Of a stretch of 21,544 nt of DNA, positions 962 through 21,486 are shown one piece after another (positions within the stretch are counted from its first letter, which is position 1; each line of letters opens with the position of its first letter). Both the position numbers and the translations under genes were made by a program. The stretch comes from a virus. The notes under the pieces are model-generated. The model ran no database searches. It was not told the DNA's origin and saw only the letters and a program-made list of their open reading frames with translations. The DNA lies in IMG/VR virus record IMGVR_UViG_3300042549_004808, positions 1-21,544 of that record. The stretch is one strand, 5' to 3'.

Positions 962-2005
962 TTAGACAATCGCAGACAGGTTGGTGGCGATTTCAGACGA
1001 CCCAAGATCATTAGGGTGAATGCCCGCCGCACCCTCGTAAAGCCGATTGATGTTGTTTGTCATGATCGACAAACCATCAACGTAGAACGTGTTCGCGTCG
1101 CCAGCAGCCAACTCAGCCGCTTGTACTGCGCTTCGGTAGTTAGAAAGTTGATACGTTGCGCCAGTATTTGGTGAGTAAATCGGGGAGATGACATAAATGG
1201 CGGCGGAAGGCAATGCCGCTCGGGCGTTGGTAATCCATCCCTGCACGGCAGTTTGAAATGTTGCTGGCAAAGTTTGCGCTACGAAATTGTTGTAGCCAAT
1301 CATGTAGGTCACAACATTGCAGCCCGTGCCAGTCAATCCATTTGCATCTGTTGCAACCGCCGTCGCTCCGCCGTTTGCCAAATTTACCAATTGCTTGGTT
1401 TCAGCGATTGCTAGAAGGTACGGCCATGTCGTTGTGACCTTTGAAGCCGTTGCGCCTTGGGAAATGCTGTCCCCGCACACCGCTATTTTGTTGGCTGGTC
1501 TTGACGGGGCTGTGAATGTTGCGCCTGTGTTGACTTCAATCTTTCGCAACTCAAACCCAGTCCAGTACGGCCAGACGATTGTCACCGTCTTGGAGCCAGC
1601 GGAAAGGCTTATTTCAATCGTCACGATTCCGGTTTCGTTCCAGAGCTGCGCCCATTGATACGTTTTAACCTCTACGCCATCAACAAGAATCGCTCCGATA
1701 CTGAATTGGTTATTGATGTCCGCTGTGTACCTCACAAGGTCGTTGTGAAACATAGACACGCGCACGGAGGTAGCCGTTGTTGTGAACGACACACGGCTTC
1801 CCGGAGATGCGTTTTGAAAGTCATAACCGGGCGAAGAAACCGGGCGAAGGAACCGAAGCGTGCTTGCCGACTGCTCCGCAATAGACGCGTAATCCGAGAC
1901 GGTAAAGCTTGCCGAGTTCGGCAAGTATTGCGTCCATCCCGCTGCCGTCCCGCTTAAACCGGGGCGACGGAATCGTCTAATGACATTGGAGAGTCGGTTC
2001 CGCAT
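962..2005 (-). CDS. SGNH/GDSL-family esterase, virion-associated
   Basis: The protein has 347 residues. The C-terminal half is an SGNH hydrolase: block I is CGDSISQG with nucleophile Ser180, block II is NLANGGATA (about 208-216), block III is GYNNF (237-241), and block V is GIHPND with His330. The usual Asp three residues before the catalytic His is Ala327, so this enzyme may use a Ser-His dyad or Asp333. Residues about 25-160 form a beta-rich domain that probably binds a surface or places the enzyme on the particle. Such phage enzymes typically de-O-acetylate host polysaccharide or act on other carbohydrate esters; the substrate is inferred only from the family. The start ATG overlaps the stop of the fibre-like gene upstream (TAATG), so the two are translationally coupled and probably work on the same appendage. 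Base composition is visibly less GC-rich than the neighbouring head genes, suggesting a separately acquired host-range cassette. Confidence 0.82.
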   Translation of the reverse strand: MRNRLSNVIRRFRRPGLSGTAAGWTQYLPNSASFTVSDYASIAEQSASTLRFLRPVSSPGYDFQNASPGSRVSFTTTATSVRVSMFHNDLVRYTADINNQFSIGAILVDGVEVKTYQWAQLWNETGIVTIEISLSAGSKTVTIVWPYWTGFELRKIEVNTGATFTAPSRPANKIAVCGDSISQGATASKVTTTWPYLLAIAETKQLVNLANGGATAVATDANGLTGTGCNVVTYMIGYNNFVAQTLPATFQTAVQGWITNARAALPSAAIYVISPIYSPNTGATYQLSNYRSAVQAAELAAGDANTFYVDGLSIMTNNINRLYEGAAGIHPNDLGSSEIATNLSAIV

Positions 2006-3153: not shown

Positions 3154-3903
3154 TTACAGTTCTCCTCTGCGCTTCATGTCGAGCGCGATTGCGACCGCTT
3201 GGTCTTGTGGCTTGCCTTCTTTGATGAGCTTGGCGATCTTCGCGCCGACGGCTGGGTCAGCGGCGGACATGATCTTCAGCCCTGCCTTCTGCTCCTCGGT
3301 CTGCTCGCGGGTCATGCGGGTCTTCGCGCCGGGGCGGGCAAACTTGCCGCCGTTTTCTGCCCATTGCTGAATGTCTCTTGTTGCGACACCCTTGCTAACC
3401 ATGTCCTTGGCGGCGGCTAGGACGGCCTGAGCGATTGACATGGACGGGTTCTTCTCGTACATACCAGCCGAAAGGTCAGCGAGCAGCATTTGCTTGCGCC
3501 CGGTTTCGATGTTGTTCTTGCTGATCCACGAATATGCCGCGAGCTTCGGATCGGTGTCCTTCCCCAGAATGCCCTCGCTCCAAGACGGATGCGCGGCAAA
3601 CTCGTCTTTCGCGCCGGGGCGGGAGGACTTCTTTTTTGGAGCCGGAATAAAGGTATCGCGCTGCCCGTGTGGGACATCGTCAATCTTCTCCATTGAGCCG
3701 TCCTCGTACAACCAGTAAGGCGTTGAATCCGAGTCGCTTGCCGAGATGCCATGCCATTCAAGGTCAGCGGCGCTCGTAATACCCTTCGCCTTCAGCGCCT
3801 TGCGAAGCGCCCCGGCGGTAGTGCGCTTGTCGGCGAAGACTTCTTTCGCTGCAAATCCAAGACGGGCGGCGATTTCCTTGCGTGTGTTGCTCATGTCGTG
3901 CAT
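3154..3903 (-). CDS. Modular head-region protein with two RPGAK spacers
   Basis: The protein has 249 residues and no enzyme fold that I recognise. The N-terminus (IAARLGFAAKEVFADK, residues 11-26) resembles the N-termini of the proteins at 7317 and 6505. RPGAK occurs at residues 95-99 and 190-194, followed by DEF and TRM. It cuts the chain into an N-terminal piece, a helical middle piece rich in Ala and Lys, and a C-terminal piece. The C-terminal piece ends with IKEGKPQDQAVAIALDMKRR, a short helical phage module I have seen in other phage proteins without a known role. ATG at 3903 has the better-spaced SD (GGGAG, nine bases upstream). An ATG at 3894 would give MSNTRKEI and fits the related protein's N-terminus better. 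It lies between MuF and the fibre gene, so an internal, decoration or ejection protein is plausible, but the function is unknown. Confidence 0.75.
   Translation of the reverse strand: MHDMSNTRKEIAARLGFAAKEVFADKRTTAGALRKALKAKGITSAADLEWHGISASDSDSTPYWLYEDGSMEKIDDVPHGQRDTFIPAPKKKSSRPGAKDEFAAHPSWSEGILGKDTDPKLAAYSWISKNNIETGRKQMLLADLSAGMYEKNPSMSIAQAVLAAAKDMVSKGVATRDIQQWAENGGKFARPGAKTRMTREQTEEQKAGLKIMSAADPAVGAKIAKLIKEGKPQDQAVAIALDMKRRGEL
3323..3623 (-). repeat. Two copies of the RPGAK-coding DNA repeat
   Basis: The 16-base string TTCGCGCCGGGGCGGG (plus-strand sense) occurs at 3323-3338 and 3608-3623. On the minus strand it encodes the Arg-Pro-Gly-Ala-Lys spacer of the 249-residue protein. A third exact copy lies at 8038-8053 in another gene. 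Confidence 0.8.
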
Positions 3904-6504: not shown

Positions 6505-7320
6505 TTAATCCGGGAGTTTGTTGAGTGGTGGAAGCCCGCGCTGCTTGCGCTCTCGATTCACCATGCTGAGGGCTTGTTTGTTGGAGCGTGCAATGTCGGC
6601 AGCGCGTTTAGCCTCTGGGGTGTTCTGCGCTGCACGCTTCTCGCGCATAGTACGCATTGCGGCTTCGCTTGCCTTGGCAGCGGCTTCATGCTGCTTGCGT
6701 AGGGTTTCCACGTCCTGCTTCGCTTTGTCGAGTTGACCTTCAAGGGCGCGAATGGTCTTTGCCTTTTCAGGCAACCCGCCAGCGCGTGCCTGTGGGCCTT
6801 GCCGCTTCACTTCAGCGAGTTCGGCTTCCTTCTTGCGAATGGTGTCCGCCGCCTTCTTTGCTTCCCGCGCATCGCGTTGGTCGTACTGGCGGGTAATGTC
6901 TGAGCGGGTTTCGGACAGCCATTGCTCCGTGAACGACTTCCCAGCCGCCTTGGCGCGGTCTTCAATGCCGCGCACGGTGTCGCTTGGCTTCGATGACGAA
7001 CCGCCGCCGCCGCCACCTTCGGCTCCGCAGGTGTTCCCGGGCTTGAACCCGCCCTTACCAATGCCGCAGTTGCTATCGAACCTCGACCGCTGCATCAAGG
7101 CTTTGATCTGGTCTACCGTCATGCGCTTGACAACGCCGTTCGGCTGTTTCACTTCGTAGGACGTAGCAAAGGCTGGCGGGTTAGTTTCCCCGCTGCGGAA
7201 GTCAAGCGTATACCCGAGGCGCTTGAGCGCCGCTTCGGCTTGGTCGATGGTCAGCTTGCGCTTGCTTGTCGGCAGGGCGAAGATGCCCAGTCGGCGCATG
7301 ATCGCCTTGCGCTGGCTCAC
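6505..7320 (-). CDS. Coiled-coil head-module protein with CG-x-G-x-GGF-x-PGNTCG motif
   Basis: The protein has 271 residues, from GTG at 7320 overlapping the preceding stop by four bases (GTGA). The N-terminus IMRRLGIFALPTSKRKL resembles the RLGFAA N-termini of the proteins at 7317 and 3154. Residues 81-99 contain NCGIGKGGFKPGNTCG, a two-Cys glycine-rich motif that I recall in other phage portal-proximal proteins, followed by a six-Gly linker (102-107). Residues about 115-255 are almost wholly charged and helical (Glu/Lys/Ala/Gln heptads) and should form a long coiled coil. No enzyme motif is present. Its position just before the portal suggests a head-internal, connector or scaffold-associated role. 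The function is not known. Confidence 0.75.
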   Translation of the reverse strand: MSQRKAIMRRLGIFALPTSKRKLTIDQAEAALKRLGYTLDFRSGETNPPAFATSYEVKQPNGVVKRMTVDQIKALMQRSRFDSNCGIGKGGFKPGNTCGAEGGGGGGSSSKPSDTVRGIEDRAKAAGKSFTEQWLSETRSDITRQYDQRDAREAKKAADTIRKKEAELAEVKRQGPQARAGGLPEKAKTIRALEGQLDKAKQDVETLRKQHEAAAKASEAAMRTMREKRAAQNTPEAKRAADIARSNKQALSMVNRERKQRGLPPLNKLPD

Positions 7321-8327
7321 GCCTTTGCTTTCGCGCCCGGTCGCAGGGACAGGGTCTTGAGCTTTTGGGGTGAGTAATCGACTACCTTTAAGATTTGAAC
7401 ATTAACATTCTTGGCTTTTGGATGGCTTTTCTTCAAAGCCTCCAGCACTCGCTTCCCGGAATACTCCGCTTCCGCTTGGGTATCGAACGACGTACTTGCC
7501 CAAATGGAGTTGTCAACATATCCATTAATCGTAAAGTAATTGCCATCGCTACTATCCATCTTCGCCTTCACGCCGGGGCGGGCGGCTTTCATAGACTCGG
7601 TCTTCATTTGCTTGACTGCCGAAACAACCATGTTGATGCCGTCAACTAGCTTCTGCCCAAGTGCTTTGTATTGCGGGTATTTGCGGGCAATCTCTTTAGC
7701 TGCTCCTAGAAGCTCTCGTAATCCTTCTACGTTAAAACCGTCCGCCAAATTCTTTGCATCGAGTTTGGCTTCCCAGTTTGCTGGGGCCGCCATCTCCGCC
7801 TTCACGCCCGGGCGGGCAAAGCCTCCGCGTAGCCCTGAAGTTTCAAGCCCACGCAACGCGGCGGCCTTCGCCCTTGCCTCAGTTGAGTACGCCCGCATCG
7901 TGCCGAGCATATCTTCGTCCTTGCCGATGCCCGTTTCAATGCGCTGCACAACGTATGCGTAATAAGTTCCCGTTGCGTCGCGGGAAATCATCGCGGACTT
8001 GTTGCCCTTGCGACCGACTTCCGTAGCAAACTTCGCCTTCGCGCCGGGGCGGGAGAATGCCTCGTTAAATTCCCAGCCAAGCACTTGAGCGCCTGTGTTT
8101 GCGTCTGGAACCCATTTATTGAATGACGCTCCTCCAGACTTGAGCGCATTGCGAAGGGCATTGGCGCGACTGCTGCTATGTGGCTTGGTCAAGATTTGTC
8201 GAACCTTGGCAACCACTTCGGTCGGAAGCGACCGCATCCATGCAATGTTTTCTGGGTGTGCTGCAAAAGTGTCCTTCACGCCTTGCGCCGCGAATCCCAA
8301 ACGCTTCTCGATGTCTTGCTTGCTCAT
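7317..8327 (-). CDS. Modular head-region protein: four about 79-residue modules bounded by RPG(A/V)K
   Basis: ATG at 8327 is chosen because AAAGGA lies seven bases upstream; a longer form from 8354 has no such site. The product has 336 residues. RPG(A/V)K occurs at residues 93-97, 172-176, 250-254 and 329-333, so the Lys positions are 97, 176, 254 and 333. A degenerate copy, QGVKDTF, puts another Lys at 18. The spacing is therefore 79, 79, 78 and 79. Each motif is usually followed by Ala-Lys/Glu-Phe/Met. The modules between motifs differ: modules 2 and 4 look like small mixed alpha/beta units (YYAYVVQ...TEARAKAAALRGL; WASTSFDTQAEAEYSGKRVL), while module 3 is all helical. The N-terminus IEKRLGFAA is shared with the protein at 3154. 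It lies between the large terminase and the coiled-coil gene. I do not recognise a function; an internal head protein processed or folded in units is the leading idea. Confidence 0.78.
   Translation of the reverse strand: MSKQDIEKRLGFAAQGVKDTFAAHPENIAWMRSLPTEVVAKVRQILTKPHSSSRANALRNALKSGGASFNKWVPDANTGAQVLGWEFNEAFSRPGAKAKFATEVGRKGNKSAMISRDATGTYYAYVVQRIETGIGKDEDMLGTMRAYSTEARAKAAALRGLETSGLRGGFARPGVKAEMAAPANWEAKLDAKNLADGFNVEGLRELLGAAKEIARKYPQYKALGQKLVDGINMVVSAVKQMKTESMKAARPGVKAKMDSSDGNYFTINGYVDNSIWASTSFDTQAEAEYSGKRVLEALKKSHPKAKNVNVQILKVVDYSPQKLKTLSLRPGAKAKA
7330..8053 (-). repeat. Four copies of the RPG(A/V)K-coding DNA repeat
   Basis: Copies lie at 8038-8053 (identical to those at 3323 and 3608), 7801-7816 (two mismatches), 7567-7582 (one mismatch) and 7330-7345 (diverged). 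The mismatches at 7801 and 7567 include the change to a Val codon. The intervening sequences are unrelated, so the repeat is not part of a simple tandem duplication of whole modules. Confidence 0.75.
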
Positions 8328-8367
8328 GTGGTTCCTTTGTTGAGTAGTCCGCAAGCATCGTACCGAT

Positions 8368-10214: not shown

Positions 10215-10471
10215 GATCGTACCTTCCGCTTTCTCAGAATCAACTCAAATCCGGCAGCGTGCGCGATTGCGAGCGCGGAGTCGAATGCAGGCTTGCGCCT
10301 CCCGTTGCGTGTCCCCGGTGTCCCAAGGAGGCAGCGCACAGTATGGGCGCGAAGGATGCCATCGGCATCCATGCGGTTTGCAAGCTCGCCTCGCGTCATG
10401 CCCTGCCCCTCAACGGCGGTGCGAATGTGTTCCTTGAAGTCGTCGTAGGTGTTGATGGCGGTGGCGGACAT
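10211..10471 (-). CDS. Small HTH protein (XRE/Cro-like)
   Basis: The protein has 86 residues. Residues about 10-40 (DFKEHIRTAVEGQGMTRGEL, then ANRMDADGILRAHTVRCLL) fit a lambda-repressor-type helix-turn-helix. The later AFDSALAIAHAAGFELILRKR resembles the C-terminal end of small XRE regulators. It probably binds DNA and may act in late gene control or as part of the packaging initiation complex, since it overlaps the putative small terminase by four bases. The start codon lies inside the 3' end of the upstream ORF (76-base overlap), and the SD is weak. Confidence 0.65.
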   Translation of the reverse strand: MSATAINTYDDFKEHIRTAVEGQGMTRGELANRMDADGILRAHTVRCLLGTPGTRNGRRKPAFDSALAIAHAAGFELILRKRKVRS

Positions 10472-10815
10472 ATGCTTTCGAGTATAGCGCGAGATGGAAC
10501 AGGGCGGCGCGAGACGCTGACGAGGCGGGGCATTTCCTTACTGAATGGGTCTTGCGCCCAAGACATGAGCATGGGGATGCGGACGGTGAACCAGTCGGGG
10601 GTGGGGAGTTTCTTGACGTACTCCTCGCGGAAGCGGCCGTGGATACGGTGGCGAACCTGCACGCTGGTGCGGAAGGGGCTGACTTGGATGACGATACCGT
10701 CTTGATCGACGGCAACGATCCCGGTCGCCGTGCGCCCGACCGTAAAACCTTCGTGCGCGAAGTAGGTGGCGAGTTGGTCGAGCTTCTTCTTCATTGCCTT
10801 ACTTGCGTATCTCAT
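10396..10815 (-). CDS. Hypothetical protein
   Basis: The protein has 139 residues. ATG at 10815 has AAGGA eight bases upstream, and that site overlaps the stop of the PAPS-reductase-like gene. The first about 95 residues look like a small globular protein (YFAHEGFTVGRTATGIVAVD, VRHRIHGRFREEYVKKLP). The last about 40 residues are Pro/Ser/Thr/Arg-rich and lie partly over the HTH gene in another frame, so they look less like selected protein. Either a true long overlap or a frameshift near 10480-10500 would explain this. No family recognised. Confidence 0.55.
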   Translation of the reverse strand: MRYASKAMKKKLDQLATYFAHEGFTVGRTATGIVAVDQDGIVIQVSPFRTSVQVRHRIHGRFREEYVKKLPTPDWFTVRIPMLMSWAQDPFSKEMPRLVSVSRRPVPSRAILESICPPPPSTPTTTSRNTFAPPLRGRA

Positions 10816-10826
10816 TGCAATTATCC

Positions 10827-11630
10827 TTAATCCGTGCAGTCGCAGGGGATGGTGTGGTCGTCGTTTGATTCGTTGAACAGGACACCCTGCTGGGTGATTT
10901 GGGTGCGAATTTGGTGGTAGGTGGGGCGGTCTTTGCGGAATCGAGCGCTTCGTTTATTTTCCTCATCTATCCACCATTGCGCCAATTCGGGTTGTTCACG
11001 GATGACGCGCTCTACCCGGGCCATGCCCTTGAGAAAGCACAAGTCGCAATTCCCGAATGCCGGGTCGTTGTTTGGGAGTTCAAGGTCAAAGTCGTTTGCC
11101 GCCCACCAGTTGATGATGGCTTCACGGTCAACCCCTGCGTCTGCAAGCGGCATAGCAATATCGCGGGTCGGGTCGTTCCGCAGCTTGGAAACACGGCGCG
11201 GCTCGTCGGCTCGCAGCCCAAGGATGGTTGTGTAGTCCGGAAGCCCGATAGATGTCATGTATCGGCGTATGGGTACGACTTTCAAATCTGTAGTGCAAAA
11301 TCTTTGTACTGGACTTGGTAGCCATTTCTTCGCCACAATAAGGTCAGAAAACGGCTCCCCGTTTTTGCTAGCCGTTTCGCTGTTCACGATGGCAAACTTT
11401 GGCGCTTCGGCTCGGTATTCGATCCACACGATTGGACACCAGCGTTCGACCTGCTTGACGAAGTCGAGCGTCTTGACGTGTTCACGCCCGGTGTTCGCAA
11501 ACATTACGACCCCGCCAGCAGGCAACGTACCGCCCCAAGCGTCAAGAACCTGCCGTAGCAAATAGCCTGACGTGCGGCCGCCGCTAAACGACATGACGAA
11601 CGGGGGATCGACCTTGTAATAATCTGACAT
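10827..11630 (-). CDS. PAPS reductase-like / PP-loop ATP pyrophosphatase family protein
   Basis: ATG at 11630 has AGGAAG eight bases upstream and gives 267 residues; a GTG at 11639 is less well placed. The N-terminus VMSFSGGRTSGYLL (from residue 12) is a PP-loop (SGGxxS) for ATP binding with alpha-phosphate cleavage. FANTGREHVKTLDFV follows, as in the PAPS reductase/DndC superfamily. Cys112 in RFCTTDLK, Cys195 and Cys198 in NCDLCFLKG, and a C-terminal CDC are candidate metal, cluster or thiol ligands. Phages often carry this family; proposed roles include sulfur transfer to nucleic acid or a nucleotide modification. No DndA/B/D/E or Ssp partners lie in the window, so classical phosphorothioation cannot be claimed. 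It sits between replication-like genes and the terminase region. Confidence 0.85.
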   Translation of the reverse strand: MSDYYKVDPPFVMSFSGGRTSGYLLRQVLDAWGGTLPAGGVVMFANTGREHVKTLDFVKQVERWCPIVWIEYRAEAPKFAIVNSETASKNGEPFSDLIVAKKWLPSPVQRFCTTDLKVVPIRRYMTSIGLPDYTTILGLRADEPRRVSKLRNDPTRDIAMPLADAGVDREAIINWWAANDFDLELPNNDPAFGNCDLCFLKGMARVERVIREQPELAQWWIDEENKRSARFRKDRPTYHQIRTQITQQGVLFNESNDDHTIPCDCTD

Positions 11631-11649
11631 GGCTAGCACTTCCTAGATT

Positions 11650-11701: not shown

Positions 11702-12163
11702 TCAGACGCGGCTGCGGGCAACCCTGCCCCGCTGCGAGCGGACGTAGTCAACGGCAACAGCGAGTACGCGGGCGGTGGTGGGGACGTAGGTCATCATGTC
11801 TCGCACGGCTTCGATCTCAGCATCGGTCACGGTGGCGAGCGTTTTTGCTGCCCACGAGTCCCATTCTGCAAGCTCGCTCGCGCTGGGCGGAATGCAGGTC
11901 TGTGCGCGGGTGTCCTCGATTTCGGTACTCGCTACCCCTGCCGTGTGCGCGGTGGCGGTGATCTTGCAGTACGCCTTGTGGATGGCGGACAGGTCGGGGC
12001 GGCTATCGCGTTCGAGGCGGTGCTGCTTGATGCACTCGCGCAGGATGTCCTGCTTCAGTTGTCCCCAGCGTTCGTTCAGGAGGTCGCCTTCCTCCGAGGT
12101 CGGCTTGTACTTCGGCCACAGTTTGCACAGATAAATCTTGTTGTCGATCCACGTTGTTTGCAT
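11702..12163 (-). CDS. Putative helicase loader-like replication protein
   Basis: The protein has 153 residues, mostly helical. The N-terminal half (YLCKLWPKYKPTSEEGDLLN, then the LKQDILRECIKQHRLERDSR stretch and PDLSAIHKAYCKI) has the helix pattern and LWPKY opening that I associate with small phage helicase-loader/inhibitor proteins such as G39P. This is a similarity of pattern, not a proven match. The C-terminal half has no recognised motif. It follows the DUF1376 gene by 18 bases, where phages usually place a loader or helicase. The distance to the next gene downstream is about 70 bases and contains a hairpin. Confidence 0.5.
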   Translation of the reverse strand: MQTTWIDNKIYLCKLWPKYKPTSEEGDLLNERWGQLKQDILRECIKQHRLERDSRPDLSAIHKAYCKITATAHTAGVASTEIEDTRAQTCIPPSASELAEWDSWAAKTLATVTDAEIEAVRDMMTYVPTTARVLAVAVDYVRSQRGRVARSRV

Positions 12164-12181: not shown

Positions 12182-12724
12182 TTAGAACGGTGTCCAGTTC
12201 GGATCGGCTTCTTGTGCTGCCTTTAACTCCGCTCGCCGTAGGCGACGACCCCCCTTCCCAAGGGGGGTTACGGGGGGATTGGTATTTGTAGTTGTGGTTG
12301 TGGTTGTAGTTGCCATCGGTTTGCCATTGGCTGAGCCATTGGCTGAGCCATTACCTGAGCCATTGGCGGAGCCATTCTTGCCACTCCAACGGGCATCGGC
12401 TCCACGCCTTCCGGATTCGCTTCGTTCGTTGTGGCGCTGCTCGACCTTGACGCGCTCGCGTTCCATGCGCGGGTTCACAAGGCTAGCCATTGGCTTAGCC
12501 AATGGCTGAGCCATAGGCTCAAAGCGTCCCCGAATGATTGACCAGTCACGCTCAGAGAGCGGGCAGCGGGTCAGGATTGAGCAGGCTTCGCGGTCGTCTG
12601 GGATGCCCCCGTTCGTCCACGCGTACATGAGGAGCTGCGTGTATGACCAGCCTTGGATGGGGGTCATCGTTGCGGTGCTGACTAAGAAGTCAGTCGGGTA
12701 CATAGGGAACCACGGTGTAGACAT
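12182..12724 (-). CDS. DUF1376-family phage replication-type protein
   Basis: The protein has 180 residues. The N-terminus WFPMYPTDFLVSTATMTPIQ, then YTQLLMYAWTNGGIPDD and LTRCPLSERDWSII, matches the DUF1376 pattern, a family usually found in phage replication regions. After residue about 70 it becomes low complexity: PMAQPLAKPMA, then Gly/Ser/Asn repeats, then eight Thr in a row, then NPPVTPLGKGGRR. ATG at 12724 has AAGGA six bases upstream. It is the first gene of the leftward block and faces the divergent control region, so it is probably expressed before the head genes. The DNA of the linker contains 12-bp tandem repeats and a perfect palindrome. Confidence 0.75.
   Translation of the reverse strand: MSTPWFPMYPTDFLVSTATMTPIQGWSYTQLLMYAWTNGGIPDDREACSILTRCPLSERDWSIIRGRFEPMAQPLAKPMASLVNPRMERERVKVEQRHNERSESGRRGADARWSGKNGSANGSGNGSANGSANGKPMATTTTTTTTNTNPPVTPLGKGGRRLRRAELKAAQEADPNWTPF
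12286..12313. repeat. Simple repeat of GTTGTG/GTTGTA coding a Thr run
   Basis: An irregular six-base repeat (TTGTAGTTGTGG type) encodes eight Thr on the minus strand. Such runs change length easily by slippage, and here length changes of three bases would keep the frame. Confidence 0.6.
12323..12370. repeat. Four tandem 12-bp units (GCCATTGGCTGA)
   Basis: Units lie at 12323, 12335, 12347 and 12359: two exact, the third GCCATTACCTGA, the fourth GCCATTGGCGGA. They encode the Gly-Ser-Asn/Ala linker of the DUF1376 protein. The same GCCATTGGCT core recurs in the palindrome at 12485-12507. Confidence 0.8.
12485..12507. repeat. Perfect 11-bp inverted repeat with one-base centre
   Basis: AGCCATTGGCT (12485-12495), T, AGCCAATGGCT (12497-12507). 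It lies inside the DUF1376 coding sequence over PLAKPMA codons. The arms share their sequence with the nearby 12-bp tandem units, so together they resemble an iteron-like cluster. Confidence 0.75.
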
Positions 12725-13081: not shown

Positions 13082-13176
13082 AATCTGTCAACAAACTCAT
13101 GTACTAGCCCTTGCGTACCGATATACCTTGTAGTACCTTACTGAAGTCAAAGGCGCGTGCCTCTGACAAACGCAAA

Positions 13177-13200
13177 CAGTTTGAGAGGACTGAGCAAATG
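13177..13200 (+). promoter_or_regulatory. Repeated 24-nt leader with SD, copy 1
   Basis: A 24-base string beginning CAGTTTGAGAGGACTGAG and ending in the ATG at 13198 is repeated without mismatch at 14033-14056. GAGAGGA is the SD and lies eight bases from the ATG. The bases after the ATG differ between the copies, so the identity belongs to the leader and not to the proteins. Confidence 0.8.
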
Positions 13201-13752
13201 ACCACCGCAGCAAATACCCCCGCCGAAATCGCAAACAAGTTTGACACCAATTGGGACTTGGCCGCCGAAGCCATCAAGCCAATTATCAAGCGCATCGGAT
13301 TTAAGCGTTTCATTCATGTCGAACGTATGTCAGAAGAAACCGAATGCTTCACCACAGACATCACACTTGACGGCAAGAAGATTGGTACGGCTGAGAATAG
13401 TGGACACGGTGGCAGCACTTTCGTCCGTATCGCTGACTCAAAGATTGAAGCGGAACTTGTCAGCGAGATGACAAAGGCGTTGGTTAACGTCAATGTTGAC
13501 CACTATTTCCATTCCGTTGATGACCTCATCGACCAAGCAGTCGCTGACGAAATTGAACGCCGTGACGAAGAGAAGCAGGTCAAGAGCATTTGCAAGAAGT
13601 TCCACAAGCATGGCATGAATGTCTTGCGTACCGAACAGGGCGACTTCTACGGGTACAAGAATATTGCCGCAGGTCAAGCCGCCATCGAAGCCAAGGGTGA
13701 CAAGGTCATTCACATTTACCACGTCAATCCTGCTTTCAACGTCAAGAAGTAA
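13198..13752 (+). CDS. Hypothetical early protein with DGKKIGTAENSGHGG motif
   Basis: The start at 13198 follows the repeated leader SD. The longer TTG-initiated form from 13111 is rejected because its extra 29 residues read through the leader. The product has 184 residues. Its middle has DITLDGKKIGTAENSGHGGS (about 54-73), a strand-turn pattern (target-G-K-x-[IV]-G-x-x-x-N-x-G-x-GG) I recall from several uncharacterised phage proteins. Residues about 95-150 are acidic then basic helix (DEIERRDEEKQVKSICKKF). The C-terminus is a small beta-like segment ending AFNVKK. It is the first gene of the rightward operon. GC content is lower than in later genes. Function unknown. Confidence 0.75.
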   Translation: MTTAANTPAEIANKFDTNWDLAAEAIKPIIKRIGFKRFIHVERMSEETECFTTDITLDGKKIGTAENSGHGGSTFVRIADSKIEAELVSEMTKALVNVNVDHYFHSVDDLIDQAVADEIERRDEEKQVKSICKKFHKHGMNVLRTEQGDFYGYKNIAAGQAAIEAKGDKVIHIYHVNPAFNVKK

Positions 13753-14634: not shown

Positions 14635-14972
14635 ACACCAAGAAGATCCGCAAGCGCGAAGTTGAATACGACATCAATGTTGACCAGTTGTACGGAATCC
14701 CGGAAGTCGTTGCCGAGTACCTCATGTCCCACGCCGTGACCGTCCTCCTAGAAGGTCGCTACCAAGTCGATGGCGGCAACCCGGACGCAGGCGACCAGCC
14801 AGCATGGCGCTTGCTCGACTGGAAGATCCTGACCGTGAGCCTTGACGGGCAAGTCCTCGACCATGACGAGCGCGTCCCGTCAGACTTCCCGATGGCCATC
14901 GTCATCAACAGCACCTACTCGCGCCATACGCGGGAGTACCTTGAGGCGCGACCGCCGGAAATGTACGAATGA
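14628..14972 (+). CDS. Hypothetical protein
   Basis: A 114-residue product from ATG at 14628 with AAAGGAA nine bases upstream. It contains VEYDINVDQLYGIPEVVAEYL, LLDWKILTVSLDGQVLDHDE and a C-terminal STYSRHTREYLEARPPEMYE. It looks like a compact mixed alpha/beta protein. No motif recognised. It overlaps the methyltransferase start by four bases (ATGA), so it is translated together with it and might assist or regulate it, but nothing in the sequence shows this. Confidence 0.65.
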   Translation: MLDTKKIRKREVEYDINVDQLYGIPEVVAEYLMSHAVTVLLEGRYQVDGGNPDAGDQPAWRLLDWKILTVSLDGQVLDHDERVPSDFPMAIVINSTYSRHTREYLEARPPEMYE

Positions 14973-16351
14973 AATACCTATCTGTCTGTTCAGGCATTGA
15001 GGCTGCGACCGTTGCTTGGCATCGGCTTGGCTGGGAGCCTGTTGGATTCTCGGAGATTGAACCCTTCCCTAGCGCGGTTCTCGCGCATCATTACCCTCAT
15101 ATTCCCAACCTTGGGGACATGACCAAATTTCAGGAGTGGCCGTTAGATGCAGGAGCAATTGACCTTTTGGTGGGAGGAACCCCATGCCAGTCCTTCAGCG
15201 TTGCCGGACTCCGGCAAGGACTCCGCGACCCACGCGGAAACCTCATGCTTACCTACCTTGCAATCGCTGCACGTCTACGGCCTCGATGGGTCGTTTGGGA
15301 AAACGTGCCGGGAGTGCTTAGTTCATCCGGAGGACGGGATTTTGGTTCCTTCCTCAGCGGGCTACGGCAATTGGGGTATCAGTACGCCTACAGGGTGTTG
15401 GACGCTCAATGGTGCAGAACACACGGGCATCCCCGTGCCGTCCCGCAGCGCCGGAGACGTGTCTTCGTTGTCGGATGTCTTGGAGACGCAACCGCTGCCG
15501 CAAAGGTATTGTTTGAGCGCGAAAGCGTGCAGCGGCATTCTAAAAAGAGCGGAGCGGCGGGGCAAGAAGCTGCCAGAGATGTTGAGGGACGCGTTGGAGC
15601 AGGCTGCTGGTGGGACGGCGGAAACACCTCCGACACCCTGACCAAATGCGGGGCAAACGGGGCGCAGCGGATGCCCGACAAAGACAACTTTGGTGCGGTG
15701 TTGCAACCGTTTGACCAACAGCAAAACGGTGCATATGGCATAGGTAAAGTTAGTAGCACTCGTTTAGCGCGAGAATATAAAGGGCCTACCGACCTTGTTG
15801 CCGTCCCGTACACCAAGTCCAAACGCGCCCAGTCTGACACCGATGATGAGACATGGGTGGAGGGGCAGGTCAACCCCACGCTCTCGCTGTTTGACTGCGG
15901 GGACGTGCGGGCGACAACGATTGCCATACAGGGCAACCTCATTGGGCGCAACAAAGGTGGGCCGCAAAGGGTAGGCGCGTCAAACGAAGGAGCTATGTAC
16001 ACAATGACGAAGGCAGATGTGCATGGCGTTGCGGTTGCTTTCCACCCTACCCAAGATCCCATCAGCAGTATTGATGGGTCAGTTCACGCAATGGGGTGCG
16101 GTAGTAGTGGCGGCTGCGCTACGCACGCGGTCGCGCAAGCCATGACCGTGCGCCGATTGACCCCAAGGGAATGCGAACGCTTGCAGGGGTTTCCCGACGA
16201 TTACACGCTGATCCCTTGGCGCAAGAAGGCGGCGGACGATTGCCCGGATGGGCCGAGGTACAAAGCGCTGGGTAACAGCATGGCCGTGAATTGCATGGAA
16301 TGGATTGGAGAACGCATTGCCGCCCTTGAGGCGGAGAAGGAAACACCATGA
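14969..16351 (+). CDS. DNA (cytosine-5-)-methyltransferase
   Basis: The protein has 460 residues and all the main C5-methyltransferase motifs: I (LSVCSGIEAATVAW, 4-17), IV with the catalytic Cys73 (GGTPCQSFSVAG), VI (WENVPG, 110-115), VIII (QRRRRVFVVG, 160-169), IX (RRLTPRECERLQGFPDDYT, about 395-413) and X (ALGNSMAVN, from about 433). The variable target-recognition segment is about 175-390. It transfers a methyl group from AdoMet to cytosine, most likely to protect phage DNA from host restriction. The recognition site cannot be read from sequence. No restriction endonuclease gene accompanies it. It starts and ends in ATGA overlaps, so it is an integral part of the operon. A second long ORF lies inside it in the +1 frame (15147-15641). 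Confidence 0.95.
   Translation: MKYLSVCSGIEAATVAWHRLGWEPVGFSEIEPFPSAVLAHHYPHIPNLGDMTKFQEWPLDAGAIDLLVGGTPCQSFSVAGLRQGLRDPRGNLMLTYLAIAARLRPRWVVWENVPGVLSSSGGRDFGSFLSGLRQLGYQYAYRVLDAQWCRTHGHPRAVPQRRRRVFVVGCLGDATAAAKVLFERESVQRHSKKSGAAGQEAARDVEGRVGAGCWWDGGNTSDTLTKCGANGAQRMPDKDNFGAVLQPFDQQQNGAYGIGKVSSTRLAREYKGPTDLVAVPYTKSKRAQSDTDDETWVEGQVNPTLSLFDCGDVRATTIAIQGNLIGRNKGGPQRVGASNEGAMYTMTKADVHGVAVAFHPTQDPISSIDGSVHAMGCGSSGGCATHAVAQAMTVRRLTPRECERLQGFPDDYTLIPWRKKAADDCPDGPRYKALGNSMAVNCMEWIGERIAALEAEKETP
15147..15641 (+). CDS. Overprinted ORF inside the methyltransferase gene
   Basis: A 164-residue ORF in the +1 frame lies wholly within the methyltransferase, over its residues 60-224, including motifs IV, VI and VIII. 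It begins MQEQLTFWWEEPHASPSALP and has GLDGSFGKTCREC, GCWTLNGAEH, SSLSDVLETQPLPQRY and LSAKACSGILKRAERRGKKL. I recall hypothetical phage proteins with these features (QLTFW, S-LSD-LE, K-AC-GIL-RAEKRGK-LP), often at methyltransferase loci. AGGAG lies 10 bases before the ATG. The last third overlies a part of the methyltransferase that is not a conserved motif, so the alternate frame may be the constrained one there. The alternative is a long chance ORF in GC-rich coding DNA. Function unknown. Confidence 0.6.
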   Translation: MQEQLTFWWEEPHASPSALPDSGKDSATHAETSCLPTLQSLHVYGLDGSFGKTCRECLVHPEDGILVPSSAGYGNWGISTPTGCWTLNGAEHTGIPVPSRSAGDVSSLSDVLETQPLPQRYCLSAKACSGILKRAERRGKKLPEMLRDALEQAAGGTAETPPTP

Positions 16352-17255: not shown

Positions 17256-17438
17256 ATGCGCGGGGACTGGGAAGAGGACATCATTGACCGCATCACGGCG
17301 AGCGAGTCCACCGACCCCCTACTCAAAGAAGCCGCAAGCGAGATCACCTATATGCGCGAGCAGCTCACCGCCCAAATCAAAGAAGTCAACCGCGCACGGC
17401 AAGCGCTTCTCGTATGCCAGCGGGCGCAACGTGCTTGA
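17256..17438 (+). CDS. Small coiled-coil phage protein
   Basis: A 60-residue product begins MRGDWEEDIIDRITASESTD. It continues PLLKEAASEITYMREQLTAQ and IKEVNRARQALLV, a pattern of small phage proteins with a DW-x-[ED]-DII-x-RI opening and a short coiled coil. GAGGG lies six bases upstream of ATG at 17256. A longer frame from 17082 runs back through the terminator and is rejected. It overlaps the RusA gene by eight bases. Confidence 0.6.
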   Translation: MRGDWEEDIIDRITASESTDPLLKEAASEITYMREQLTAQIKEVNRARQALLVCQRAQRA

Positions 17439-17841
17439 ATTCGTAGTCGTTGGAATCCCTGCCCCGCAAGGCTCAAAGCGTGCATTCGTGCGCGGCGGCC
17501 GTGTTTCGCTCGTGGAGTCATGCGCGAGGGTGAAGCCTTACCGCGCCCTTATTTCCCTTGCCGCAAGTCAAGCGCGTAAAGACCCACCAACGCGGCTACC
17601 TGTAGGGATAGGGATTACCTTTGTCTTCGTTCGACCGAAGAGCCACTACACCAGCAAAGGCGCACTCCGCGCTGGCGTTCCGACCCACCCCGGCAAGCCT
17701 GACGTGGATAAGCTCTGCCGTGCCGTCCTTGATGCCCTTACCGGAATCCTGTATCACGATGACGCGCAGGTCGTTTCCCTCAACGCCACCAAGCAGTACG
17801 GGGTTGCGTCGATGACGGCTATTTCGCTCGTCACTTGTTGA
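17431..17841 (+). CDS. rusA: RusA-family Holliday junction resolvase
   Basis: Starting at GTG 17431 gives 136 residues: FVVVGIPAPQGSKRAFVRG at the N-terminus (the G-x-P-x-P-K/Q-x-[RS] loop of RusA), then GKPDVDKLCRAVLDALTGIL and YHDDAQV. Asp91, Asp93 and Asp110/111 fit the catalytic acidic cluster of RusA, which cuts four-way DNA junctions symmetrically with a metal ion. The spacing matches the family. The SD is weak, so translation may be coupled to the small gene before it. It acts in phage recombination or resolves branched DNA before packaging, consistent with ERF and Gp157 next to it. The -35 of the next promoter overlaps its stop codon. Confidence 0.9.
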   Translation: MLEFVVVGIPAPQGSKRAFVRGGRVSLVESCARVKPYRALISLAASQARKDPPTRLPVGIGITFVFVRPKSHYTSKGALRAGVPTHPGKPDVDKLCRAVLDALTGILYHDDAQVVSLNATKQYGVASMTAISLVTC

Positions 17842-17866
17842 CACGGATTATATCTTCGTGTATTCT
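17838..17866 (+). promoter_or_regulatory. Sigma70-type promoter for the ERF/Gp157 unit
   Basis: TTGACA at 17838-17843, a 17-base spacer and TATTCT at 17861-17866. The -35 is a perfect consensus and the spacing is ideal. Transcription would start near 17873, giving a leader of about 57 bases that contains a small hairpin (TCGCCG at 17884 with CGGCGA at 17900). Confidence 0.82.
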
Positions 17867-17911
17867 CCCGATGCCCTAGCATTTCGCCGGGGTCGAGTGC
17901 GGCGAGCCGCG

Positions 17912-17932
17912 CAGTCTTGAGAGGACATTATG
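17912..17932 (+). promoter_or_regulatory. Diverged third copy of the early leader/SD
   Basis: CAGTCTTGAGAGGAC precedes the ATG at 17930-17932. It matches the start of the 24-base leader at 13177 and 14033 except for one inserted C, and differs after GGAC. The SD GAGAGGA is kept. Confidence 0.55.
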
Positions 17933-18712
17933 CAACGAAGTGACACTATTGGGGAGCTGGCGAAGGCGCTGGCGGCCGCAAACTTGGAAATCGTGAACCC
18001 TAGCCTTGACGCGGTGAACCCGCATTTCAAGAGCCGCTACGCCAGCCTTGGCGCAATCATCAACGCCGTCCGCCTGCCGCTTGCCCGTCACGGGATCAGC
18101 GCCGTGCAGACGGTCAGCACCGATGGTGGGGCGGTCGGAGTCACGACCACCTTGCTCCACGCGAGCGGGGAATGGATGGCGGAGACGGCTATGTCCGCAC
18201 TACCTGACCGCGCTACGGTTCAGCAGCTTGGCTCGATAATTACTTACCTTCGCAGGTACTGCCTAGCCTCTGTGACCAACATCGTAGGGGAAGAGGATCA
18301 GGACGGGAACGAGGCAAGCCTGCCAAGCGCACCGCGTAGCGAGCCGCGTAAGCCCTTCAAGCCGCAAGACCCACGGACAGCCGTTCCGCCGCCTCCGACC
18401 GCTCCTAGGGCAACCAAGCCCGCTCCTGAGCCTGTGGCGGAAGTCAAGGCGGCAACCAAGGCGCTTGACGCGTACCCGGACGTATACGAGGGGACATTCG
18501 ACATCCTGCGCGTAGTCGTTCGTGACGGCAAGGCTCACGCCATTCAGGTGGACGGCCTGCACGGGAAAGCGTGGCTCGCCACAACCATACAAGAGTACGT
18601 CAACATGGCGAAAGAACACGTCAACGGCTGTATGCAGTTGCAGCTTGAGCGCGTCGGCGACACGCTCCAGATCATGAAGGTCATCGCATCCAAAAAGGAG
18701 ATTCCGTTTTGA
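17930..18712 (+). CDS. ERF-family single-strand annealing protein
   Basis: The protein has 260 residues. The ERF domain occupies about 1-125: LAKALAAANLEIVNPSLDAV, NPHFKSRYASLGAIINAV, PLARHGISAVQTV, LLHASGEWMAETAMSALP, QQLGSIITYLRRYCLASV and GEEDQDGN. These are the conserved ERF blocks. The family anneals complementary single strands in phage recombination. A Pro/Ala-rich linker (about 130-170) leads to a C-terminal domain (DVYEGTFDILRVVVRDGK, then LHGKAWLATTIQEY), which probably binds DNA or partners. ATG at 17930 has a GAGGA SD. It is followed, with a four-base overlap, by Gp157. Confidence 0.92.
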   Translation: MQRSDTIGELAKALAAANLEIVNPSLDAVNPHFKSRYASLGAIINAVRLPLARHGISAVQTVSTDGGAVGVTTTLLHASGEWMAETAMSALPDRATVQQLGSIITYLRRYCLASVTNIVGEEDQDGNEASLPSAPRSEPRKPFKPQDPRTAVPPPPTAPRATKPAPEPVAEVKAATKALDAYPDVYEGTFDILRVVVRDGKAHAIQVDGLHGKAWLATTIQEYVNMAKEHVNGCMQLQLERVGDTLQIMKVIASKKEIPF

Positions 18713-19218
18713 GCCTCTATCAAATTACGTCGGAAATGCAGTCCATTCTCGATGCCGTCTTGGACGGTGGCATCGACTCGCCCGAGGCGCAGGCCGCGCT
18801 CGACGAGCATCTCACGGGTCTAGATGTCGCCCTCGACACCAAGGCCGAGTCCTACGCGGGATTCATTCGTGAGCTAGAGATGCGAGCGGAGGCGAGGGGC
18901 AAGGAAGCCTCTCGCATCCGTGCGCTCGCAGCGGCTGACGATGCCCTTGCCCTACGCCTCAAAGAAGGGCTAAAGGCGGCAATGGAAACGACTGGGCGGC
19001 TCAAGATCGAAACGCCCCGGTTCAAGCTGTCGGTCGCTGGCAATGGCGGAAAGCAGTCGCTTCAGATCGACGACGATGCCGTCAAGGGGCTTGAAGTTCC
19101 CCTCGTCAAGATCGTCACCGAGCCTAACAAGGAAGCGATCCGGATCGTCCTTGAGGCTGGCGGCGAGATCCCCGGATGCCGCTTGCTCCCTCGCGGGACA
19201 AGCCTCCGCATTCGCTGA
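18709..19218 (+). CDS. Gp157-family phage protein
   Basis: The protein has 169 residues and starts at TTG 18709, which overlaps the ERF stop by four bases (TTGA) and has AAGGAGA seven bases upstream. The order of features fits Siphovirus Gp157: SLYQITSEMQSILDAVLDGG, a long coiled coil (KAESYAGFIRELEMRAEA to LKEGLKAAMETTG), RLKIETPRFKLSVAGNGG, then VPLVKIVTEPNKEAIRIVLE and AGGEIPGCRLLPRGTSLRIR. The family is regularly found beside phage recombination genes. Its exact biochemical role is not settled as far as I know. Confidence 0.9.
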   Translation: MSLYQITSEMQSILDAVLDGGIDSPEAQAALDEHLTGLDVALDTKAESYAGFIRELEMRAEARGKEASRIRALAAADDALALRLKEGLKAAMETTGRLKIETPRFKLSVAGNGGKQSLQIDDDAVKGLEVPLVKIVTEPNKEAIRIVLEAGGEIPGCRLLPRGTSLRIR

Positions 19219-19222
19219 CCTA

Positions 19223-19651
19223 CTACCTTGCCTCTCCCTCGCCGTTGCCTTCGGGTGGCGGCGAGGTTTCTTTTTGCCCAAAGGGAACTAGGCGGTTGAG
19301 CGCCTCGCGCCGCTTCGCGCATGGGCCGCACGAGTTCGCCTTGATCCCGACCGCGCTCGTCATCGCCGCAACCACGTCACCCAGCCCGCGCATCCGAGGG
19401 GGTGCAACCGTCCCCGGCGCTGGCGGCTGCATTTCCTTTGTCAGCTTGGCGCGGGCAACGGCGGGGCGTGCGCCAAGGAAGAGGGGCGGGTCAACGACAT
19501 TGCCTTCCCGCGTCTCGCGTTCCTCGCAGGTCGCACACTTGGCTACGTCAAGGTTTTTGAGGCAGATGGGTTGTGTGCCAGCCACGCGCCACGACTTGCA
19601 ATCAATGATCGGGAGCGAGATGCCAGAGACGTTGAGCGTGCCGATGGTCAT
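19223..19651 (-). CDS. Small cysteine-containing late protein
   Basis: The protein has 142 residues. ATG at 19651 overlaps the stop of the Cys-rich gene (ATGA), so it is coupled to it. It contains IIDCKSWRVAGTQPICLKNL, AKCATCEERETREG, a Pro-rich linker, then RGLGDVVAAMTSAVGIKANS and CGPCAKRREALNRLVPF. The last part (GLGD to CxxC-x-x-RR-x-x-LN-x-LVPF) is a motif I recall in other phage late proteins. The CxxC pairs could bind metal or form disulfides. Its last 13 or so codons overlie the plus-strand terminator of the early operon. Function unknown. Confidence 0.65.
   Translation of the reverse strand: MTIGTLNVSGISLPIIDCKSWRVAGTQPICLKNLDVAKCATCEERETREGNVVDPPLFLGARPAVARAKLTKEMQPPAPGTVAPPRMRGLGDVVAAMTSAVGIKANSCGPCAKRREALNRLVPFGQKETSPPPEGNGEGEAR
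19237..19275 (+). terminator. Rho-independent terminator of the ERF/Gp157 operon
   Basis: A 13-base-pair stem (19237-19249 with 19254-19266, including three consecutive G-U pairs) is closed by a UUCG tetraloop and followed by TTTCTTTTT. It lies 19 bases after the Gp157 stop and inside the 3' end of the converging minus-strand gene. The opposite strand has no U-tract, so it works in one direction only. Confidence 0.92.
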
Positions 19652-21486
19652 GAGGTGAGGGTGACGACTGAGCCGTCAGACTTGCAGAAGATGCGGGGGT
19701 ATTGGACAGAACGCACGCATGGCTGCGGGAGGGGGTGATCGATGTTCCATTGAGCGCAGTCCGGGTACTGATCTGGGCAGCATGGCGCTGGCTGGTAAAC
19801 GAATGGGTAGGCGTAGCAGCCCGTGCGCGGGTCAGGCATCCCCGGGCAAAGCGAAGTCCAGCCATACACAAGCACGATGATGTCGTTGCCGATTGTGACG
19901 GTGATGTCTTCTAACGGCCACCCGTCGCGGGCTTCGCAATTGGTTGCGGGTTGATAGAAGCCGTAATCCACACAGATCTGAATATCGGGTGACGCGTACT
20001 CCTGCACGCGCTTCATGGTGTACCGCTCCCCGAATGAATACTCGGGGAAGGACAGGCATTGGATAACGAAGTTGTTTGGGGTTGCGCTGATGGCTGAGAT
20101 GGACGCGTTGCAAGTGTTCTCGCTTGTCATCCGCCACGGGTAATCGACAAGCAAGGTCTGCGACGCGCAGGCGTAATATCGAGGGGACGAGCCGACAAGC
20201 GTGACCGTAATGTCTTGATTTCCATTCGTAAACGCCACGCGGTCAACCGTCAAGGTATCCCCATCAGAGAACCCGGGGCGGTCGTTTGGGGTCTGCCAGT
20301 CGCACAATACGCAGCTCTGGCGATTGCCGAACCAGAAGTACGCCGACCACGGCGGGATACCGGAAGCCGTCACCAGCGCCCCGATACGGGTATTGATGCG
20401 CTCGGCAATGTGCGCGGCGTTGCCTGAGAAGATCACGATGTCAAGACCGCAGACACTTAGCTTCGGCGCTCCAAGCGTTCCCCAGCCCGTTGCGACCGTG
20501 TTCTGTTGGTCAATGTGGACAATCCCGGTCGGGCCAAGGAAGAGGGCATTGAGCGCCGCCTGAGCGCCCGGGCTTTCGGGGTCAATCCCCGGCGCAAAGC
20601 AGGCCGGAAAGACAATGGTCATGATGTCCTCGTCATGGGACGGGCAACCAAACCCACCGAGCGAGTAGCACGTCCGCACGTCGTACGTCTCAAAGCGATC
20701 CTCAAAACTCTCGCAGTAGTCAGGCACGTCCTCGCAAATTGGGGTATTGCCGCAGCAATCGCCCTCCGGTTCGCAGTCCGGGCAATTCATGTACTCAATG
20801 TATGACTGAGTGACTTGATTCGGGCAACTAGCAGGGGTCACAGGGTCGCGCACGGTGCAGAAGCCCATCTCCTGCGACATACCCACGTCGAGGCTGACGA
20901 TCTCTACTGGCGGGCCGTGATCGCAACGAACGTACCAAGGAACGCCAATCGTCTCAATACAGGTGCGAGCGGAGCTTGCAATCGTGACCCCGCTCCCTTT
21001 CACCGTTCCGGCTTGATCTTTGAAGGGGTAGCACTCCGCCACCAATTCCTCGCATGGGAGTTGAGGGTTGTTCGCAATGGCGGGGCCATACTCAGGGATT
21101 TGCAGGTCTGCAATCCCGCCCGGGTTCCCCTGCTGCTGGGGCGCGGCATAGCAGCACGGCGGCCCCTGCGCGGCACGGTTCTTGATCTCAACCAATTCAC
21201 CCACGTTGACCGGGTAAATCGAGAGCGGGTTCGGGCAGGGCAGCGCCTCAACCCCGGTCAGGATGTAGATGCAACAGTCGTACGAGATGTAGTAGCACTT
21301 GGTCGCAATGTCTGGCGGGTCGGGTATGCCTATCGAAATCAGATAGCCGATGCAGAACTCAATGCGAGCAGGAGCCTGCGAGCAATCAGGCTCGCAGCAA
21401 TAATTGGCAAAGTAGTCCTCGCACTTGAGGGCGTACCACAACACGCCGGGGTCGCAGCAACACGAAACCGCCGGGAGTGCGCTCAC
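19648..21486 (-). CDS. Large cysteine-rich late protein
   Basis: The protein has 612 residues, from GTG at 21486. By my count 44 are Cys (about 7%), spread over the whole length, including CCC at 9-11 and several CC, CxxC and PCC pairs. It is also rich in Pro, Tyr, Ile, Asn and Asp, with few Lys. There is no signal peptide or transmembrane segment that I can see. A region about 320-420 (TGIVHIDQQNTVATGWGT, then IVIFSGNAAHIAERINTRIG) reads like a globular beta/alpha domain, and the surrounding parts are beta-rich. I do not recognise a family. The position at the distal end of the late block suggests a virion or host-interaction protein. The Cys load implies disulfides formed outside the cytoplasm or metal sites. 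The frame is open throughout and the Cys are in its frame only, so it is a real gene. Confidence 0.75.
   Translation of the reverse strand: MSALPAVSCCCDPGVLWYALKCEDYFANYCCEPDCSQAPARIEFCIGYLISIGIPDPPDIATKCYYISYDCCIYILTGVEALPCPNPLSIYPVNVGELVEIKNRAAQGPPCCYAAPQQQGNPGGIADLQIPEYGPAIANNPQLPCEELVAECYPFKDQAGTVKGSGVTIASSARTCIETIGVPWYVRCDHGPPVEIVSLDVGMSQEMGFCTVRDPVTPASCPNQVTQSYIEYMNCPDCEPEGDCCGNTPICEDVPDYCESFEDRFETYDVRTCYSLGGFGCPSHDEDIMTIVFPACFAPGIDPESPGAQAALNALFLGPTGIVHIDQQNTVATGWGTLGAPKLSVCGLDIVIFSGNAAHIAERINTRIGALVTASGIPPWSAYFWFGNRQSCVLCDWQTPNDRPGFSDGDTLTVDRVAFTNGNQDITVTLVGSSPRYYACASQTLLVDYPWRMTSENTCNASISAISATPNNFVIQCLSFPEYSFGERYTMKRVQEYASPDIQICVDYGFYQPATNCEARDGWPLEDITVTIGNDIIVLVYGWTSLCPGMPDPRTGCYAYPFVYQPAPCCPDQYPDCAQWNIDHPLPQPCVRSVQYPRIFCKSDGSVVTLTS

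Follow-up and report, generated by a model that had tools for sequence, protein, structure and literature searches.

What does a PAPS-reductase-like protein with intact motifs do in a phage that seems to lack the partners with which such proteins modify nucleic acids? The question is raised by a gene in a virus record of 21,544 bases (IMG/VR record IMGVR_UViG_3300042549_004808), the whole of which we call the window. According to the available text of PMC11437467, lambda, marine phages, archaeal viruses and defence systems all have homologues of PAPS reductase, which "deserve further investigation". A preliminary description of the window had proposed that the gene, together with a C5-methyltransferase, could mean two layers of nucleic acid modification, or else a role in sulfur or nucleotide metabolism.

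The gene and its surroundings

An open reading frame is present at 10827-11630 on the minus strand, as first described, and its 267-codon product fits an ATG at 11630 and an AGGAAG at 11644-11639. Close relatives on viral contigs are 86-92% identical to the window protein, with one of them (A1) at 100%. The dN/dS of the window gene against six close relatives (L003, L004, L005, L007, L008, L010) lies between 0.036 and 0.130, so the protein is under purifying selection. Given its PHROG and Pfam matches, its AlphaFold2 fold and this dN/dS, the reading frame is a genuine gene, far from chance. The locus contains the following features:

10827-11630, minus strand: gene for a NinC-like PP-loop protein of 267 aa, a putative sulfur transferase; start codon ATG, 11630-11628
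11639-11644, minus strand: AGGAAG, probable ribosome-binding site of the NinC-like gene, from the sequence
11702-12163, minus strand: hypothetical gene directly upstream, 153 aa, open reading frame with no family found
12182-12724, minus strand: DUF1376/primosomal-type replication gene (phrog_9327; DUF1376 below the Pfam cut-off)
10396-10815, minus strand: hypothetical gene directly downstream, 139 aa, open reading frame with no family found
14969-16351, plus strand: cytosine-C5 DNA methyltransferase, 460 aa (PF00145, 5.8e-49)
17284-19218, plus strand: recombination genes RusA (17284-17841), Erf (17930-18712) and Gp157 (18709-19218), by Pfam

The gene does sit with replication genes, the DUF1376/primosomal-type frame being two genes upstream; downstream of the 139-aa hypothetical gene there are small reading frames and a terminase gene. 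The claim that no Dnd or Ssp genes are nearby also held for the ten other window proteins, of which PADLOC at 0.01 matched only the C5-methyltransferase, with no Dnd or Ssp among the best 25 of 60 matches and no SspA, SspB or SspC gene seen. Linear virus records are often fragments. As the window is such a record, this absence applies to the fragment and not to the whole phage genome.

A member of the lambda NinC family

PHROG 424 (phrog_424) matches the window protein at 1e-47 over residues 4-242, and lambda NinC itself at 1.2e-89. Pfam PAPS_reduct reaches 24.6 bits, barely above its cut-off of 22.5, and NCBIfam cysH gives no match at 0.001. The best PADLOC match is SspD (6e-13), and the SspD profile finds the protein at 1.8e-14 versus 0.038 for the CysH profile. 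A NinC-family profile scores SspD rows of the alignment at 73.9-87.8 bits, the two PptA-type rows discussed below at 46.1 and 60.1, DndC rows at 13.9-46.2 and CysH rows at 8.4-24.4, and profile-profile comparison with the NinC family ranks them alike (SspD 7.8e-26, DndC 3.9e-13, CysH 6.8e-11). On these sequence grounds, the lambda NinC family (PHROG 424), which is known, widespread and functionally unexplained, gains a new member in the window protein. Membership of DndC was rejected: its family TIGR03183 is absent among the NCBIfam matches at 0.001, PADLOC DndC gives only 0.003, and 6/6 DndC rows lack the terminal cysteine pair. Two single-sequence PDB matches, and HIV integrase zinc-domain matches of the A4 profile (E 0.04 and above), were judged chance.

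A maximum-likelihood tree of 59 rows included eight SspD and six DndC sequences from genomes, eight CysH sequences, and the E. coli proteins CysH, YbdN and CysD; because some of its branches are long, motifs and profiles were also used for placement. CysH forms a clade (100/97) and SspD another (100/100), with the window protein outside SspD. The NinC-like proteins, PptA and SspD group together (98/94), and inside this group NinC-like proteins join PptA (95/84). The PptA-type rows are sister to the NinC-like group and do not include the window protein, whose own clade is a supported branch separate from lambda NinC. The phylogeny against CysH, DndC and phage clades, suggested beforehand as a check, leaves the window protein outside the CysH clade in the best tree, although the AU test does not reject a joint clade of NinC-like proteins and CysH (p 0.148), which costs 21 log-likelihood units. 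Sequence comparison as a whole indicates that the window protein is probably not an assimilatory CysH.

The AlphaFold2 model has a mean pLDDT of 92.3 and a pTM of 0.87, and its low-confidence part is the C-terminal tail alone (blocks from residue 251, pLDDT near 51). The modelled fold is that of PAPS reductases and PP-ATPases, with an APS reductase as top structural match (Z 12.3). The best matches (Z about 12 to 9) are APS/PAPS reductases, ATP sulfurylase, FAD synthase, LarE, GMP synthetase, NcsA, TilS and TtuA, of which LarE, NcsA and TtuA are sulfur transferases. For a predicted structure, such matches show a PP-ATPase fold and not a function.

Conserved motifs and a C-terminal cysteine pair

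The preliminary description had reported an intact PP-loop and C112, C195 and C198, all of which we confirmed. Overall, the motif set comprises the PP-loop SGGRTS, CT..K, GxRxDExxR, NCxxC and a C-terminal cysteine pair, located as follows (GxRxDExxR being given with the residues below):

11568-11585, minus strand: PP-loop SGGRTS, residues 16-21; S16, G17, G18, R19 and S21 invariant in 84/84 viral relatives
11280-11297, minus strand: C112-T..K117 motif, first cysteine of a putative [4Fe-4S] triad; 84/84 viral relatives
11037-11048, minus strand: C195-xx-C198, cysteines 2 and 3 of the putative triad; 84/84 viral relatives, the motif having helped to find the loci
10836-10844, minus strand: C-terminal cysteine pair C263-D-C265, proposed persulfide relay; 84/84 viral relatives

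C263 and C265, in the C-terminal CDCTD and previously unmentioned, are as invariant as C112, C195 and C198, all five cysteines being kept in 84/84 viral relatives. Also unchanged in all 84 are S16, G17, G18, R19, S21, E50, T113, K117, G138, R140, D142, E143, R146, N194 and K201; the invariance of some motifs partly reflects how the loci were chosen, since the locus search used them, while the C-terminal cysteine pair was no search pattern in the two locus scans. The same 20 positions (S16 to C265) are each kept in 77 to 80 of 80 genome relatives, found by an alignment scan of genome contigs (a single-protein scan returned none). Among 12 sequences comprising the window protein, phage homologues and lambda NinC (alignment A3), 28 columns are invariant, including SGG..S, TGxE, C112, K117, GxRxDE..R, NC..C and the two C-terminal cysteines.

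Lambda NinC (PHROG 424 / 33262) shares all motif positions and the five cysteines, and its gene likewise adjoins replication and recombination genes. It is only 29% identical to the window protein, however, and its tail pair, CSESC, is near the C-terminal end but does not lie at the terminus itself. SspD of the SspABCD phosphorothioation system has the PP-loop, CT..K, DE..R, CxxC and the terminal cysteine pair, and the residue set of its active centre is present in the window protein; apart from forming its own clade, it differs in a PP-loop of the form SGG(K/R)DS and a tail pair of the form CxxC. The pair ends 7/8 SspD rows, the eighth (L350) being short, and 0/6 DndC rows. C112 is found in 8/8 SspD rows, 6/6 DndC rows and both PptA-type rows, and C195-xx-C198 in all rows of these three types. 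DndC thus shares the PP-loop and the first three cysteines in 6/6 rows, but keeps R146 in only 1/6 and has the weaker profile score.

With CysH the window protein has in common the fold, TG and GxR. E50, E143 and R146, kept in 8/8 SspD and both PptA-type rows, are replaced in 9/9 CysH rows, and the CysH tail is ECGLH, which carries the catalytic cysteine, versus CDCTD. The APS-type CysH rows L365 and L366 also have cluster-capable cysteines (CC and GCxPC), so finding an Fe-S cluster would not by itself tell the families apart. The NCxxC column is absent in 9/9 CysH rows and was left unused as a difference, the GCxPC of L365/L366 being misplaced by the alignment.

In the available text of PMC10853773, DndC holds a 4Fe-4S centre by three cysteines, a further cysteine dyad likely passes sulfur, and SspD is the DndC equivalent. 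By this analogy, C112, C195 and C198 would hold a cluster and C263 and C265 would serve as relay. In this sense, the flexible predicted tail with its two invariant cysteines fits a relay arm.

Association with C5-methyltransferase genes

Most direct neighbours in viral loci are on the same strand as the NinC-like gene (71/82 downstream and 62/83 upstream). Among the 84 of 94 representative same-strand neighbours that were scanned, those with annotation mostly act in replication or recombination; the commonest PHROG names, with only 1 to 4 members each, are NinB (whose gene adjoins ninC in lambda), replication initiation, primase/helicase, NinG and RusA. Neighbour families of genome loci were left unused, as the query-gene cluster covered only 53/80 of them.

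Within at most 6 kb of flank, a C5-methyltransferase occurs in 23/84 viral and 30/80 genome NinC loci, versus 8/80 Erf and 4/80 terminase control loci, counted with a profile trained partly on NinC neighbours. The count was repeated with E. coli Dcm as sole query, giving 15 NinC viral, 11 NinC genome, 2 Erf and 2 terminase loci, and similar loci were then merged. In merged loci, 22/66 NinC stand against 8/54 Erf (Fisher p 0.016) and 4/56 terminase (p 0.0003), and with the Dcm query 14/66 against 2/54 (p 0.004) and 2/56 (p 0.003). The odds ratios of 2.9 to 7.3 refer to these two control families only, and the general methyltransferase richness of some phage groups could contribute to them; loci L045 and L068 are in both the NinC set and a control set, and the terminase control used a smaller alignment, the larger one being too diverse. 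A crude motif count of N6/N4 methyltransferases (0, 5, 0 and 3 loci) was uninformative.

The C5-methyltransferase is on the strand of the NinC-like gene in 17/23 viral and 30/30 genome loci. No fewer than seven genome loci (L113, L114, L138, L167, L169, L174, L179) have a gap of about 60 bases or less between the two matches. On genome contigs L138, L167, L169, L174 and L179 the end of the C5-methyltransferase match is followed, after 15-24 bases and on the same strand, by the NinC-like match, apparently a two-gene unit in bacterial genomes. The idea of two layers of modification gains statistical support from this association across relatives.

Other arrangements were also seen. In Bosea sp. 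plasmid pANAM02 (L370:5120-7295), the genes for thymidylate synthase and dihydrofolate reductase flank the NinC-like gene, all on one strand, a hint that some lineages may use it at the nucleotide level. In phage Chi (L021), about 4 kb separates two genes annotated PAPS reductase (gp42 and gp52). At L079:998-5935, a 1646-aa polyvalent-type protein with an ADP-ribosyltransferase domain is encoded close upstream of the NinC-like gene.

A phage relative deposited with IscS

The PDB profile search returned one strong relative, chain C of 21fy, named PptA (E 3.4e-11), whose printed letters are identical to a protein of Vibrio phage vB_VhaP_VH-5 along the latter's residues 1-250; that protein carries the annotation hypothetical. 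A query with E. coli IscS found the IscS sequence also listed in 21fy. Hence, the E. coli cysteine desulfurase shares a deposited entry with a phage protein from this branch. Like the window protein, PptA is a phage protein with CT..K, NCxxC and a cysteine pair near its C-terminal end, but it is only 22% identical to it and its PP-loop reads SCGAPS. A profile of the window clade alone matches PptA weakly (0.021), indicating a sister and not a close homologue. Literature searches found no published paper on PptA or 21fy, and 21fy is not among the structural matches listed for the predicted fold (fold library to 2026-04-08).

Phosphorothioation systems may use the housekeeping IscS, according to the available texts of PMC12839542, PMC12707154 and PMC10853773. 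Since known systems can borrow it, no phage desulfurase gene need be nearby, and 21fy suggests host IscS as a simple answer to the puzzle of the missing partners. That the gene is "without modification partners" is right in so far as no Dnd or Ssp gene was seen, but as a puzzle it is weak, given the deposition of PptA with IscS and this borrowing.

Proposed mechanism and alternatives

We propose, at an even balance of confidence, that the window protein is a NinC-family PP-loop ATP pyrophosphatase acting as an IscS-fed sulfur transferase, with phage DNA as the likeliest substrate. The proposal is based on the family of the protein, its motifs and predicted fold, the selection acting on it, its gene context and the co-deposition of a relative with IscS. 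Host IscS would place a persulfide on the protein, for which the flexible C-terminal cysteine pair is the probable site; C112, C195 and C198 would hold an iron-sulfur cluster like the three DndC cysteines; the PP-loop and ATP would adenylate a substrate oxygen, and sulfur would replace it. Phage DNA would be the likeliest substrate, modified at the replication fork or close to it; the phosphorothioate or thiolated base so formed may protect the DNA alongside C5 methylation. By analogy, the mode of action is most probably that of SspD, with host IscS as the sulfur source, although the protein lies outside the SspD clade. Sulfur modification of nucleic acid is the reading that fits best, and DNA is favoured as substrate by sequence kinship and context.

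Several points count against this proposal. The IscS partner may not carry over from PptA, a distant sister, to the window clade, and 21fy may reflect inhibition or co-purification. SspD is described in PMC12707154, as far as its available text goes, as acting together with Ssp partners, and the fragment has no SspB, SspC or Dnd partner. Also, the available text of PMC10695390 reports ninC as nonessential for lambda plaques by CRISPRi with Q supplied, and plaques stay intact upon loss of the nin region. A limited literature search found no report of a biochemical activity of lambda NinC.

That the protein thiolates tRNA or a free nucleotide (at the thymidylate level, for instance) instead of DNA appears unlikely, though it has points in its favour: the PP-loop thiolases NcsA and TtuA have the same fold, the Bosea homologue is flanked by genes of thymidylate metabolism, and phage Chi has ThyX-type and nucleoside deoxyribosyltransferase genes near. 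However, the nearest characterised relatives by sequence are DNA-modification enzymes, SspD and less so DndC, and most annotated direct neighbours act on DNA. Distinctly unlikely is a decoy that binds IscS for host takeover, starving host Dnd/Ssp defences or Fe-S assembly and leaving nucleic acid unmodified. The deposition of PptA with IscS, its altered PP-loop and the intact plaques of lambda without the nin region would agree with it, but a mere decoy would not need the PP-loop, CT..K and GxRxDExxR that are unchanged in 84/84 viral relatives, and the C5-methyltransferase linkage and replication context suit modification better. An auxiliary assimilatory PAPS/APS reductase (CysH) feeding host sulfate assimilation is very improbable, since the database label of the window protein, the superfamily fold with its APS reductase match, the AU test and the cluster cysteines of APS-type rows, which all allow it, are opposed by the CDCTD tail, by E50, E143 and R146 and by the profile scores, so that the role in sulfur metabolism raised in the preliminary description is unsupported in the sense of assimilation.

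Viral genes labelled cysH

Of 50,697 phage records, the window protein matches 400 and lambda NinC 501, with certain overlap between the two sets. Queries with E. coli CysH and with an APS-reductase-type CysH matched 4 and 5 records, respectively, of which several are chromosome-sized or short fragments, at a sensitivity that could miss divergent viral CysH. Viral cysH has been interpreted as sulfur cycling, according to the available text of PMC9301287. Many viral "cysH" labels are probably misleading, and if NinC-like proteins are IscS-fed sulfur transferases, the sulfur-cycling interpretation needs revision.

A wider possibility, which we regard as tentative and somewhat doubtful, is that each NinC-family protein modifies phage DNA with sulfur as a one-gene system, with host IscS as sole sulfur partner and access provided by the replisome, making phosphorothioates or thiolated bases as a second layer next to C5 methylation. 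If so, the "cysH" listed as a global core metabolic gene of viruses would be, for the most part, a gene of DNA modification, and lambda NinC, long unexplained and with relatives in hundreds of phage records, would gain its function. Lambda in laboratory E. coli makes the question of NinC and sulfur directly testable.

Other features of the window

Near the fragment end, a 612-aa reading frame (19648-21486, minus strand) is unusually cysteine-rich, with 44 cysteines and several CC pairs, and matches no Pfam family. A Radical_SAM match on 13111-13749, below the cut-off, was judged chance. In the structural region, two minus-strand frames (3154-3903 and 7317-8354) have a common N-terminal RLGFAA and contain 2 and 4 copies, respectively, of RPG(A/V)K repeats, which might be sites of processing or linkers. 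Where the structural genes end, the frame at 962-2005 (minus strand) encodes a GDSL-type hydrolase domain, possibly a tail-associated esterase.
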